Assembly: GCA_937919205.1 (NCBI GenBank) | Contig: CALFOZ010000156.1 | Location: 1-33,155, forward strand | Source of the DNA: an uncultured Planctomycetia bacterium | GTDB taxonomy: Bacteria; Planctomycetota; Phycisphaerae; Phycisphaerales; SM1A02 | Length of the DNA: 33,155 bases | Reading direction: 5' to 3' | In this document: in pieces, positions 10,884 to 33,155 of the stretch | Layout: each line of letters begins with the position of its first letter | Numbering within the stretch: the first letter of the stretch is position 1 | Made by a program: the position numbers and the translations under genes | The notes under the pieces: generated by a model | What the model was told of the DNA's origin: nothing | The model's input: the letters and a program-made list of their open reading frames with translations, nothing else | Database searches by the model: none

Positions 10884-12029
10884 TTAATTTTCGAAACGAA
10901 TTTGGTCGGTACGAAGTCCAAGCTTTGCCAGCATTCCTTCAAACTGATCGAGCGAAAAGAATTCCATTGAAACTTTGCCGGTGTTTGGCTTACGACCAAG
11001 CTGAATTGTGACTCGAGTACCAAGAAGGGTACTTAATCGTGTTTCTAAATCCTTTACATTGGCCTGACGTCTTGCGGGTACTGTTCCACGTGGAACTCTT
11101 CCCTTTGCTTCCGAAGAGAGTCTTTGTACTTCGCGCTCAAGAGTTCTAACAGACCATTCGCCGCGTACTGTTGATTCTGCAAGCGTTGCTCTAGCCTTAA
11201 TATCTAAAATGCCAAGAAGAGCTTTAGCATGGCCTTGTGAAAGCAAGCCCTGGCGAACCAACCCCGCAGACAATGGGTCTAGTTCTGCTAAGCGCAGAAG
11301 ATTTGTTACGGTAGTACGGTCTAAAGCTAGTTTTTCGGCGAGTTTTTCATGGGTAAGCGAGAATTCTTCAGCCAATTTAAGTATTGCCAGAGCTCTGTCC
11401 ATTGGATTAAGATCTGTTCTGTGTACATTCTCAATTAGGGCACAAATACCCGAATACTCGTCCGAAGCCTGAACTACGATCGCAGAAATAGAATTCCTGC
11501 CAAGCATCTTAAAGGCTCGCCAACGTCGTTCTCCGGCTACTATTTCAAATTGGCCAGTAGTGCCATCAAGCGGTCGAACAATTATTGGTTGTAGCAATCC
11601 ATTGGACTTTATTGACGCCGCTAAATCAGACAGTTCGGAAGTCTTAAAATCGGTCCTTGGCTGTCTTGGATTGGGTCTAATTTTTGAAATCTCAATCAAA
11701 GCAACCCCGTCGCCAAATACAACTGAAGATTTGTTTGACTCTGAATTTTTATGTAGCGATGCCGAAATAATGGGTTTGGTTGTTGATAGATCGGGTGTAG
11801 TTTCTGGTTGGGCAACAACAACAGTGGGTACAACAATCGAAACTCCAGAATGTGCTGGATCTTTTTGTGGGCTATTAATCGGAATAAGTCGGCCAAGTCC
11901 GCGTCCAAGTTTTGTAATTGGAACTGCTTGAGACGGTTTTTTCGTGATATTTTCCCCTGTATTTGAATCAATTGATTTACCTGAAATTACAGGAGATTCT
12001 TTTTTGGAATTGTTATTTGGATTAGTCAT
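10884..12029 (-). CDS. parB: Chromosome-partitioning protein ParB
   Basis: ParB is a DNA-binding CTPase clamp that loads at parS and spreads to segregate the chromosome. The 381-residue protein has a low-complexity N-terminal extension (about 1-38), then the usual ParB start motif K-L-G-R-G-L-G-R-L-I (40-49), a second poorly conserved linker (about 52-108), and the core from I-S-K-I-R-P-N-P-R-Q-P-R (114-125). The CTP-binding box G-E-R-R-W-R is at 166-171, followed by A-L-I-E-N-V-H-R-T-D-L-N-P (197-209), the helix-turn-helix around 222-246 and a C-terminal dimer domain. A typical family length is about 290, the excess being the two linkers. A strong Shine-Dalgarno fixes the start. No parA is adjacent, although parA normally precedes parB. 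Two parS-like sites are present, one in the gene and one upstream. Confidence 0.95.
   Translation of the reverse strand: MTNPNNNSKKESPVISGKSIDSNTGENITKKPSQAVPITKLGRGLGRLIPINSPQKDPAHSGVSIVVPTVVVAQPETTPDLSTTKPIISASLHKNSESNKSSVVFGDGVALIEISKIRPNPRQPRTDFKTSELSDLAASIKSNGLLQPIIVRPLDGTTGQFEIVAGERRWRAFKMLGRNSISAIVVQASDEYSGICALIENVHRTDLNPMDRALAILKLAEEFSLTHEKLAEKLALDRTTVTNLLRLAELDPLSAGLVRQGLLSQGHAKALLGILDIKARATLAESTVRGEWSVRTLEREVQRLSSEAKGRVPRGTVPARRQANVKDLETRLSTLLGTRVTIQLGRKPNTGKVSMEFFSLDQFEGMLAKLGLRTDQIRFEN
11082..11097. promoter_or_regulatory. parS site inside parB
   Basis: The site is T-GTTCCACGTGGAAC-T, with a perfect 14-bp palindrome at 11083-11096. It matches the known bacterial parS pattern GTTNCACGTGNAAC at every fixed position. 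It encodes R-V-P-R-G-T-V in the ParB hinge before the C-terminal domain. Confidence 0.88.
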
Positions 12030-29675: not shown

Positions 29676-31031
29676 ATGTCAACCCACATGTCGCTCAACC
29701 TGAATCAATATCTGCCCTCGTGGCTTCCGGCGCTTCCGCAAACCATGCAAATCATTGTTGGTCTCATCGTGATCCTGATCATGTTGCATGTCATCTTGAT
29801 TGGCTGTGCGTACTCAATCATGTTGGAGCGCAAACTAAGTTCATGGATGCAAGACCGCGTGGGACCAAATCGCACCGGCCCATTCGGCTTGTTGCAACCC
29901 ATCGCCGACGGTTTGAAATTTCTCATGAAGGAAGAATTTGTTCCCGCGGGCGCCGACAAAATTTTGTTCATGATTGCGCCCGCGCTACTGATGGTTCCAG
30001 CCATGATCACATTCGCCATTGTTCCGTGGGCCGGCACGCTGAACTTTGACACGCTTCCGTTTGGTCTTGCAGAAACACTTGGTCTGCAAGGCATCAGCGT
30101 GAAAATGTGCGGCGCCGTAGTGAGCATTGGCATGATTTATTTGCTGGCCATTGCAAGTCTGGGCGTGTACGGCGTGGCGCTTGGTGGTTGGGCCAGCAAC
30201 AGCAAGTTCAGTTTCCTGGGCGGCCTTCGCGCCAGCGCGCAAATGATTTCATATGAAATTCCCATGGGTTTATCGCTGCTTTGCATCATTCTTACGGCTG
30301 GCAATCTTGACCCATACGGAATTGTTGTGGCACAAACTGGCGGTGGCATGTGGAACATTGTCCAGCAACCCGTCGCCGCCATAATCTTCTATACATGCTT
30401 GCTTGCCGAAGCCAACCGCGCGCCATTTGATTTAGCCGAAGCGGAAAGCGAACTGGTTGGTGGCTACCACACCGAATATTCCAGCATGCGCTTCGCCATG
30501 TTTTTCCTGGGCGAATATTTCCATCTCATCACCGGCGCCGCGTTCTTTAGTTTGCTGTTCCTTGGCGGCTGGAGCATTAGTCCATTTGGTTTGTGGTTCG
30601 ACTTGCCAGCCGAGGGCAGTCTGCTTCTCATCGGCGCGCAATTTGCCGTGATGATGGCCAAAGTCATCTTCATGGTTGCATTCGCCATGGCCATTCGCTG
30701 GACGCTTCCGCGCTTTCGCTTTGATCAACTCATGCGCCTGGCCTGGGAAGGCCTCATTCCAACTTCGCTCATGGTGTTGCTTATGACGGCGGCGTTCGTG
30801 TTCATGGGTTGGAATTCATACATTTGGATTGGCTCACTTGGTTGCATCGCGGTGCTGTATTTAATTTCGCCGCTTATGCCGCGCCAGGCTTCGCCAAATC
30901 ACAGAATTCCAATGATTGGAAGTCGTTTCAGCCCCATGGTCGATGGCACCGGCTCCGTTAGCCGCCACCCAATTGCCATGAGTGACGCGGCCATTCCTGA
31001 TCCGCGCCAAGGCCCGCTCAGCATTCACTAG
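29676..31031 (+). CDS. nuoH: NADH-quinone oxidoreductase subunit H (complex I)
   Basis: NuoH is the eight-helix membrane subunit that forms the quinone chamber of complex I together with NuoB and NuoD. The protein has up to 451 residues, against about 325-350 usually. The diagnostic loops are intact: E-R-K-L-S-S-W-M-Q-D-R-V-G-P-N-R, then G-L-L-Q-P-I-A-D-G-L-K, and E-A-N-R-A-P-F-D-L-A-E-A-E-S-E-L-V-G-G-Y. A roughly 50-residue Pro/Ser/His tail follows the last helix. TTGCAT, a 15-bp spacer and TAGAAT (29672-29677) resemble a promoter and overlap ATG 29676. If so, the real start may be ATG 29688, four codons later. It stands alone, 149 bp after carB and far from nuoA. Confidence 0.95.
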   Translation: MSTHMSLNLNQYLPSWLPALPQTMQIIVGLIVILIMLHVILIGCAYSIMLERKLSSWMQDRVGPNRTGPFGLLQPIADGLKFLMKEEFVPAGADKILFMIAPALLMVPAMITFAIVPWAGTLNFDTLPFGLAETLGLQGISVKMCGAVVSIGMIYLLAIASLGVYGVALGGWASNSKFSFLGGLRASAQMISYEIPMGLSLLCIILTAGNLDPYGIVVAQTGGGMWNIVQQPVAAIIFYTCLLAEANRAPFDLAEAESELVGGYHTEYSSMRFAMFFLGEYFHLITGAAFFSLLFLGGWSISPFGLWFDLPAEGSLLLIGAQFAVMMAKVIFMVAFAMAIRWTLPRFRFDQLMRLAWEGLIPTSLMVLLMTAAFVFMGWNSYIWIGSLGCIAVLYLISPLMPRQASPNHRIPMIGSRFSPMVDGTGSVSRHPIAMSDAAIPDPRQGPLSIH

Positions 31032-31059
31032 TTCAGCAACGCGGCCTTGGGCTTGCGGC

Positions 31060-31096
31060 TTCAACCACTTGGCTTCAACCACGTGAATTCAACCAC
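31060..31096 (+). repeat. Three TTCAACCAC repeats with a 14-bp period
   Basis: TTCAACCAC occurs at 31060, 31074 and 31088, exactly 14 bp apart. The first two copies share a longer GGCTTCAACCAC core. The array begins 29 bp after the nuoH stop. Confidence 0.75.
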
Positions 31097-31556
31097 TCGA
31101 CAGCGCACATACTCCACGCGCCCAAAGCCTGCCACGTATTCGCCAATTCAGTTTCAAACGCAACGCTCGCCACGGCAAACGCAAGGCTGTGCACAAATTA
31201 ATTCACGCACAAACCGTTTTATAAAAACAACTTGCGCCAACACCGCGCATGTTGTGCACACTCATCCACAAACATATTTGCTATTCATTGCCCGCGCGAA
31301 GCAAGCCGGCGCATTCGTCCAACCCACGCGCCATAGTCAAGCACCGCCCGCAAGCGTGCCGCGCGCGATGGCATGCGGCCAACATCCGTTCCGAAAGCCG
31401 TGTCAGCGCGCCACTTCCAATACGCGCCACGCAATTTAAACTTTGACAACACCGCAAGTCGCGCCAATTGCCACAACGCGTCAATTGTATGTTTCATTGA
31501 TTCTCCAACGCGTCACCCATGTGTTGGTTTGAAAGCATGTGCGCCATCATCGTAAT

Positions 31557-31570
31557 CAATCACGTGATTG
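31557..31570. promoter_or_regulatory. Perfect 14-bp palindrome CAATCACGTGATTG
   Basis: The dyad is fully symmetric around CACGTG but does not fit parS, because the flanking positions are CAAT/ATTG instead of GTTN/NAAC. It may be an operator for a homodimeric regulator. It is immediately followed by a GC-rich hairpin. Confidence 0.4.
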
Positions 31571-31573
31571 TGT

Positions 31574-31592
31574 CGCGCCCACTTGTGGCGCG
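31574..31592. other. GC-rich stem-loop CGCGCC/GGCGCG
   Basis: CGCGCC (31574-31579) pairs with GGCGCG (31587-31592) around a 7-nt loop. Alternatively it forms an 8-bp stem with one bulged C. An A/T-rich stretch with two AATAATT copies follows at 31596-31614. It resembles a terminator or cruciform, but no gene ends nearby. Confidence 0.35.
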
Positions 31593-31779
31593 CGCAATAA
31601 TTTTGAAAATAATTCCAACATTCACTGTTACAAATAGCAAACACGCACTATATTGTTCACAACAAGAGCGCTTGCGCACTTGCCAACGTTGGTGACGCGA
31701 TGGCGCATCACCACAGCACACCTCATGCTCGTCACTATGCGACGCCGATCGAAACTCCGACTCGATTGGTGTCGCTGTC

Positions 31780-31795
31780 TGTATTTACAAATACA
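31780..31795. promoter_or_regulatory. Inverted repeat TGTATTT-AC-AAATACA upstream of radA
   Basis: The two perfect 7-bp arms are separated by 2 bp. A third direct TGTATTT half-site lies at 31812-31818. The pair is centred about 77 bp before the radA start and could be an operator controlling radA. Confidence 0.45.
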
Positions 31796-31852
31796 AAGTA
31801 ATAAATATCGCTGTATTTGCGCCTATTTTCACCAACCCGTGCGCGCCCGCCG

Positions 31853-31858
31853 TAGAAT
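31853..31858 (+). promoter_or_regulatory. -10-like hexamer, leaderless-type, of radA
   Basis: TAGAAT is followed by CATCGC (6 nt) and then GTG 31865. The hexamer also contains the in-frame TAG stop that limits the radA frame, so no earlier start is possible. No good -35 box is seen. Confidence 0.5.
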
Positions 31859-31864
31859 CATCGC

Positions 31865-33155
31865 GTGGCCAAAGAGCGCGTGTCTTATCTATGCGGCGCT
31901 TGTGGCGCCAACCATCCAAAGTGGTTGGGCAAGTGCCCAGATTGCGGAACATGGGATTCGCTACAGCGATTTGTTGAGGCCAAGCCAACGCCCGGCATGT
32001 TGCCCGTTAGCGTTCACATGGACACCGAGCTCTCCAGCGAGGCGCAACCGCTTGGTGAAATTCAAGCCTCGCTTATTCCCCGTATTGCAAGTGGTGTTGC
32101 AGAGTTTGACCGCGTGCTTGGCGGCGGATTTGTTCCAGGCAGTGTGGTGTTGCTTGGTGGCGACCCCGGAATTGGAAAGAGCACACTTCTTTTGCAAGCA
32201 CTTGCGGCACTAGCCGATGGTGGCAGTACCGTGCTGTACGCAAGCAGTGAAGAAAGCGCGCATCAGTTGCGCCTGCGCGCCGAGCGTCTTGAGACCGCCA
32301 CCACAATTTCTTTAGGTCACACACAAAGTGCCGCAACTTCTTCGTTTGAAAATTCTCTTTCGCAAAATTCAGAAACCGATTCAACAAGCGCGCAAGAAAA
32401 TCCCACTACAACCAAACGCGCTCAAAACATTTCACGCGAGAAAAATTTATGGATTCACGCGCAGAGCAATCTTGCGCGCATTATTGAGCAAGCGCGCAAA
32501 CTGAATCCAACCGTGCTGGTTGTTGATTCAATTCAGCTTGTGCATCGCGTAGACATTGACGCCGTTCCCGGCAGTGTTTCTCAACTGCGCCGCTGTGCGC
32601 TTGATTTGGTTGCGCTTGCAAAAACAACGGGAATTATCGTTGTAATTGTGGGTCACGTCACCAAAGACGGATTGCTTGCGGGCCCGCGCTTGTTGGAACA
32701 CTTAGTAGATGTGGTACTCAGTTTCGAAGGCGACCGTCATTACGCGCACCGCGTTGTGCGCGCCGCAAAAAATCGTTTTGGTAGCACGCTTGAAGTTGGT
32801 CTGTTTGAAATGACATCGCTTGGTCTGCGCCAAGTTGATGAAAGCGCGCTCGCCGCTGATCCATCGCTTGCACCGCGACCTGGCTCGGTGTGTGTTCCAA
32901 CAATGGCCGGTACACGCTGTTTGCTTGCGGAAGTTCAAGCGCTTACTGCAACTGGTTTAGTTGGCGCCGCAAAAAGAAAAGCCTCGGGCGTTGATGCAAG
33001 CCGCCTTGCAATGTTGATTGCGGTGCTAGAACAACACGGCGGTCTGCGATTAGGCGACCAAGATGTGTACGCCGCCGCCGCCGGCGGCCTAAAAGTGCTT
33101 GAACCCGCCGCAGATTTAGCTATTTCACTTGCAGTTGCAGGCGCCAGACTTGGCC
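31865..33155 (+). CDS. radA: DNA repair protein RadA (partial, 3' end beyond window)
   Basis: RadA (Sms) is a RecA-like ATPase that processes recombination intermediates. The first 430 residues are present and the frame is open at the window end. The N-terminal zinc finger is C10-x2-C13...C24-x2-C27. Walker A is G-G-D-P-G-I-G-K105-S, Walker B lies around D221 in L-V-V-D-S, and the RadA-specific K302-N-R-F-G motif is present. The Lon-like C-terminal domain is reached but cut. A Ser/Thr/Gln/Asn-rich insertion of about 45-50 residues (about 143-194) splits the region between the A-S-S-E-E-S helix and the W-I-H-A-Q strand, where most homologues have only a few residues. The start is GTG 31865, since an in-frame TAG lies just upstream; a second GTG at 31880 is possible. 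There is no Shine-Dalgarno. Confidence 0.96.
   Translation, partial: MAKERVSYLCGACGANHPKWLGKCPDCGTWDSLQRFVEAKPTPGMLPVSVHMDTELSSEAQPLGEIQASLIPRIASGVAEFDRVLGGGFVPGSVVLLGGDPGIGKSTLLLQALAALADGGSTVLYASSEESAHQLRLRAERLETATTISLGHTQSAATSSFENSLSQNSETDSTSAQENPTTTKRAQNISREKNLWIHAQSNLARIIEQARKLNPTVLVVDSIQLVHRVDIDAVPGSVSQLRRCALDLVALAKTTGIIVVIVGHVTKDGLLAGPRLLEHLVDVVLSFEGDRHYAHRVVRAAKNRFGSTLEVGLFEMTSLGLRQVDESALAADPSLAPRPGSVCVPTMAGTRCLLAEVQALTATGLVGAAKRKASGVDASRLAMLIAVLEQHGGLRLGDQDVYAAAAGGLKVLEPAADLAISLAVAGARLG

Follow-up and report, generated by a model that had tools for sequence, protein, structure and literature searches.

In Firmicutes, sRNAs of the RsaE/RoxS type carry a C-rich single-stranded seed that has been proposed to block ribosome-binding sites. 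The alpha-r14 or "cuckoo" sRNAs of Alphaproteobacteria, for example NfeR1, are described in the cited portion of PMC10746234 as holding anti-Shine-Dalgarno motifs unpaired within hairpins. Few sRNAs have been annotated for the Planctomycetes-Verrucomicrobia-Chlamydiae group: an Rfam-based table, in the part of the source cited here, gives 8 distinct sRNAs (PMC9029176), and the Rhodopirellula-1 motif is listed as a candidate structured RNA of Proteobacteria and Planctomycetes without an Rfam number (PMC2864571).

Here we analyzed a stretch of 33,155 nucleotides (the window) from an uncultured Planctomycetia bacterium whose 2.49 Mb assembly comprises 241 contigs. A first-pass annotation had marked the 833 bp that separate nuoH from radA (31032-31864) as an origin candidate. 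We conclude that this gap is probably a composite locus and not an origin, combining a minus-strand small protein gene with a divergent, independent sRNA gene.

Results

The upstream neighbor of the gap is nuoH, encoding complex I subunit H (29676..31031, plus strand; Pfam NADHdh, E 3.5e-110), and on its other side radA (31865..33154, plus strand) runs off the contig end. By RadA, the four nearest named relatives (loci L009-L012, 69-97% identity) are MAGs that bear the labels uncultured bacterium, Planctomycetaceae, Phycisphaerales and Planctomycetota. An apparent variable-length insert occupies residues ~150-190 of RadA, and 11 of the 14 other radA-bearing genus genomes align in two pieces on either side of it. 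Only 6 nt separate a TAGAAT sequence (31853..31858, plus strand) from the radA start codon, and similar elements precede radA in genus relatives; the TAGAAT is a possible promoter of a leaderless radA mRNA.

The gap had been described as non-coding, which did not hold: alignment with relatives revealed two conserved segments, a 70-codon open reading frame on the minus strand and an RNA-like element on the plus strand. The small ORF spans 31285..31497 including its stop codon, with the coding part running from 31497 to 31288, and has GGAG 6 nt ahead of its ATG. By tblastn, each of the 15 genus genomes that have a radA locus holds a homologue in its nuoH-radA region, and homologues also adjoin radA in loci L009-L018. 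Substitutions at first, second and third codon positions were 6/3/13, 9/4/21, 10/6/28 and 10/3/21 in four comparisons, concentrated at third positions in every one. Across 151 genomes of the order, a profile of the protein detected a single copy in each of 92, which belong to families f1 to f4. Searches of Pfam and NCBIfam returned no match. Three helices are predicted (AF2 mean pLDDT 86), and a structure search returned no solved relative, its sole match having a meaningless E of 4.7. Judged by this conservation pattern, 31288-31497 is a conserved, unannotated gene predicted to encode a 70-aa protein.

The plus-strand element corresponds to a predicted sRNA at 31661..31789, with its start placed from a promoter and its end from a hairpin. 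This terminator-like 3' hairpin, P3 (31739..31775, plus strand), has 14 bp and a loop, AACUCCGAC, that exposes CUCCGA. The predicted sRNA has a fold z of -2.8, and its fold energy is -24.0 kcal/mol on the plus strand compared to -18.3 kcal/mol on the minus strand. Covariation was assessed in an alignment (A5) of 67 rows, made up of 56 sequences from outside the genus and 11 of 13 genus sequences, leaving out the near-duplicates G002 and G015, locus L249, which is without CTCCGA, and loci L298-L301, which were read later. Over these 67 sequences (61 distinct), 94.4% of cells were paired and 12 of the 14 pairs had two-sided changes, with 87 two-sided-change cells compared to 14.8 after shuffling; not one of 500 shuffles attained any of these measures. 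In the slid controls, pairing was at most 57% and covariation was 0.201 compared to 0.380 for P3. Within the genus alone, P3 covariation was not above shuffles, with one two-sided pair and 93 to 126 of 500 shuffles scoring as high. Retention of the loop motif is partly circular, since the models contain it and the script sought CTCCGA; a single model hit of 57 (L249) was without the motif, and it was dropped before covariation was counted.

The 12 nt behind the P3 stem hold 4.8 T compared to 2.4 at control positions, a figure that was if anything lowered by the ungapped stem search, which stopped early in 15 of 67 sequences. A U-tract is clear behind P3 in many relatives; in the window's genus the tail is U-poor and the hairpin is a weak terminator. 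We also considered P3 as a peptide-coding segment and rejected this reading, because a one-base insertion in two genus genomes (G010 and G004), together with changing start codons, leaves no common reading frame.

The predicted promoter of the sRNA (31627..31654, plus strand) consists of GTTACA at 31627-31632, a 16-nt spacer and TATATT at 31649-31654. The pattern GT[TG]ACA-16-TATATT is found in 6 of 13 genus genomes, and the window's form is common, with GTGACA, to five genus relatives; a TTGC[GC]T variant occurs in 4 and neither form in 3. More widely, a TTG-N3-N(16-19)-TANANT pattern, chosen after the loci had been inspected, lies upstream of the RNA in 48 of 67 loci (shuffled mean 1.7, maximum 6; other strand 0), with a spacer of 18 nt in 41 of the 48. 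The window is among the 19 loci without this commoner pattern. RNA lengths implied by the predicted promoters range from 58 to 131 nt, and the sRNA gene, of roughly 60-130 nt, would end in a Rho-independent-terminator-like hairpin.

A covariance model (R1) was built from the 13 genus sequences. It matched in 82 of 181 family genomes, among them 56 of the 104 good ones, and in 34 of 45 genera. The matching place was read in 75 of the 82 genomes (the exceptions being G021, G038, G053, G086, G092, G098 and G119), and the hairpin with CUCCGA is present in 73 of these, in some of them with mismatches inside the stem; G100 and G173 have an R1 match without it. The remaining 99 family genomes gave no match, including the genus members G005, G009 and G012. 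Neither was radA found in G012. In G005 (locus L109) and G009 (locus L129), the radA locus and the small ORF are present, yet no RNA-model match was obtained anywhere in the assembly.

A second model (R2), run against 400 genomes of the order, gave 69 matches at E <= 1.5e-9, all within the window's family. A further 15 weak matches, each of them read, came from 10 genomes outside the family and 5 inside, and among these only G206 and G173 contain CTCCGA in the matched stretch. The G206 match, a possible member from another family, has a 13-bp stem that matches but is not followed by a U-tract, and its stretch contains no nuoH, radA or small ORF. The weak G173 match was set aside, as it resembles a terminator that follows a tRNA-like sequence.

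The position of the RNA relative to nuoH is stable. Of the 56 loci outside the genus, 52 have it no more than 500 nt from the nuoH 3' end, and the other 4 have no nuoH in the stretch covered; 36 of the RNAs are convergent with nuoH and 16 are on the nuoH strand. Its strand relative to radA and to the small ORF varies, and this variation around a stable nuoH place argues against a plain radA leader. Comparative sequence supports a conserved structured element together with its strand, its 3' hairpin, a predicted promoter upstream of it in the majority of relatives and its distribution across a single family, and we infer a discrete transcript from the predicted sRNA gene.

The 9-mers that had drawn attention to the gap were reported accurately. 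Three TTGTNCACA sequences occupy exactly 31188-31196 (minus strand), 31252-31260 (plus strand) and 31653-31661, and TCATCCACA is present at 31262-31270. Based on a first-order Markov model, 0.13 copies of TTGTNCACA are expected in 833 bp compared to the 3 found (P(>=3) 0.002), and a triple as tight as this one has a Poisson expectation of ~0.05 anywhere in the genome. In the whole window, TTRTNCACA occurs 5 times compared to 2.7 expected, with 15 of 100 shuffles reaching 5. Genome-wide, the motif occurs 139 times compared to 110 for a reversed control and is therefore hardly enriched. Among the part of the 139 places that was listed, a similarly tight triple (627 bp) falls on contig C58 in a nuoF-like reading frame, which we take to be nuoF. 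Pure chance is an unlikely explanation of the gap's boxes at the local level, yet the nuoF-like triple is their equal.

Retention of the boxes was scored in 14 genus genomes with mapped gap ends, the 15th (G014) having no mapped nuoH end. The 31252 box is retained in 7 of the 14, the 31653 box in 4 (G000, G003, G011 and G013) and the 31188 box in 1 (G000). In G003, an extra minus-strand match overlaps the 31252-type box, and in G006 the single box overlaps the 5' end of the small ORF. The boxes at 31188 and 31252 lie between nuoH and the 3' end of the small ORF. The third, a DnaA-box-like TTGTTCACA (31653..31661, plus strand), covers the final two bases of TATATT and so overlaps the -10 element and the predicted start site of the sRNA. 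The DnaA-box-like 9-mers of the gap are probably incidental, one of them overlapping the RNA's predicted promoter, and promoter sequence can inflate TTGTNCACA counts.

The hint that the window lies near the origin was a fair one: parB is in the window, and dnaA lies 29-33 kb from radA in G001, G006 and G007, the 3 of 7 searched genus genomes in which both share one contig, which makes the hint reasonable. In the window genome, contig C224 carries dnaA, and contig C148 carries a second, more distant gene with a DnaA-ATPase domain (L004:454-1911); genes of this type were present in all 7 genus genomes searched, and in G011 it was the only DnaA-domain gene found. Two parS-like palindromes, at 11082 and 12080 of the window, lie inside parB and just upstream of it, each with 3 mismatches to what we take to be the parS consensus. 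Cumulative GC skew on partial contigs of relatives gave a divided result: the minimum fell at a distance of 3 kb (G006) or 6 kb (G007) from radA, but the trend in G001 was the opposite. On a G014 contig that lacks radA, the minimum is 28 kb away from dnaA.

A block just 3' of dnaA is common to five genus genomes and consists of a DnaA box, a short spacer and a TATCTATGACTATGAATA-like element (L003:1413-1708 on contig C224; also in G001, G006, G007 and G014). The box reads TTRTNCACA in four of the five and TTATCAACA in G014; the TATCTATGACTATGAATA-like element is clear in four, with G006 retaining only TCTATG. The A/T fraction of this region compared to that of its own contig is 0.62/0.50 in G001, 0.46/0.35 in G006, 0.49/0.36 in G007 and 0.53/0.45 in G014, and it is 0.61 in G000. 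This box with its AT-rich element is a likelier candidate for the origin of the genus than the nuoH-radA gap.

Discussion

Two other readings accept the hairpin and deny it a free RNA. One presumes that it simply serves nuoH and its neighbors as a terminator, shared or bidirectional, and yields no RNA product of its own; in favor of this, 36 of 56 loci have the hairpin convergent with nuoH and no more than 500 nt from the nuoH 3' end. We consider this reading unlikely, given that a same-strand promoter pattern at a regular spacing precedes the hairpin in 48 of 67 loci, that the loop sequence is nearly fixed and that in the window's genus the hairpin lies beyond the small ORF. The other presumes an attenuator in the 5' leader of radA. 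In the window's genus, and in 16 of the 56 other loci, the hairpin does precede radA on the strand that radA occupies; the distance between loop and radA is 45-505 nt in 15 of those 16 loci and 1293 nt in L250. The hairpin faces the nuoH end in 36 of 56, however, and in 5 of these radA sits behind it on the other strand; radA also appears to have its own -10 element at the start codon, so that a leader role is quite unlikely. Because the hairpin could belong to an RNA gene and still serve as a terminator or leader, our confidences in these readings overlap with that in an sRNA gene.

That the gap is the chromosome origin, as first proposed, is very improbable. It resembles DnaA-oriC regions in its clustered 9-mers (three boxes in 833 bp), its A/T patches and its nearness to dnaA, ~30 kb off in three relatives, and the skew minima near radA on the partial contigs of G006 and G007 are in its favor. 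It differs in that its boxes are poorly conserved (7, 4 and 1 of 14 genus genomes), conservation within it falls on a protein gene and a predicted RNA gene, and a better candidate, the conserved box and AT-rich element, lies beside dnaA. The comparable triple in nuoF-like coding DNA and the opposite skew trend in G001 also argue against it.

Returning to the composite locus with its sRNA gene, the CUCC of the P3 loop is complementary to the core of GGAG ribosome-binding sites. Our best guess for the mechanism, a tentative one, is pairing in trans through the terminator loop: the RNA would act without Hfq, its CUCCGA would pair with GGAG ribosome-binding sites, and this pairing would block translation of some mRNAs. 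Hfq was not found in 11 genomes, in a search that was positive in only 5 of 14 control genomes. The small ORF was considered as a target and rejected, as complementarity between the loop and the 36 nt before its aligned start was 4.17 compared to 4.61 for shuffled sequences (47 loci). A fuller proposal is rather doubtful: a single-copy, family-wide, Hfq-free sRNA of Phycisphaerales-like Planctomycetota, with the terminator loop as an anti-Shine-Dalgarno seed and the place beside nuoH linking it to control of respiration. If true, the RNA would join the small number of sRNA families described in this phylum. With structural support, and with stable synteny in the 73 genomes in which it was read, it would provide an entry point to post-transcriptional regulation in a group for which the Hfq search of 11 genomes, with its few positive controls, found none.

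With regard to known families, Rfam 15 gave nothing above the gathering cut-off in the window or in 11 related loci, nor anything above threshold in L164, L153 and L175, which also hold the RNA, and a scan of the gap at E up to 10 gave three chance-level matches only. Among the literature matches listed for small RNAs of Planctomycetes or Phycisphaera and for anti-Shine-Dalgarno sRNAs, the RNA is undescribed, which does not prove its absence from the literature; it is likewise not described among those listed for the DnaA box or oriC of Planctomycetes, and a search for Phycisphaerae origin and dnaA found nothing. The RNA is apparently a new family of intergenic sRNA with a predicted intrinsic terminator. 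It shares with the RsaE/RoxS type a C-rich loop as a proposed seed, and the Rfam scans were negative. Its likeness to Rhodopirellula-1, known here from its listing alone, is that both are candidate structured RNAs of Planctomycetes. With the alpha-r14 or "cuckoo" sRNAs it shares an anti-Shine-Dalgarno motif in an unpaired hairpin region, and, as far as the cited portion of PMC10746234 describes them, those RNAs are built of three hairpins that all bear CCUCCUCCC but diverge in their stems. The predicted RNA of the gap, in contrast, belongs to another phylum and has one conserved CUCCGA loop, in its last hairpin, on a stem of conserved sequence.
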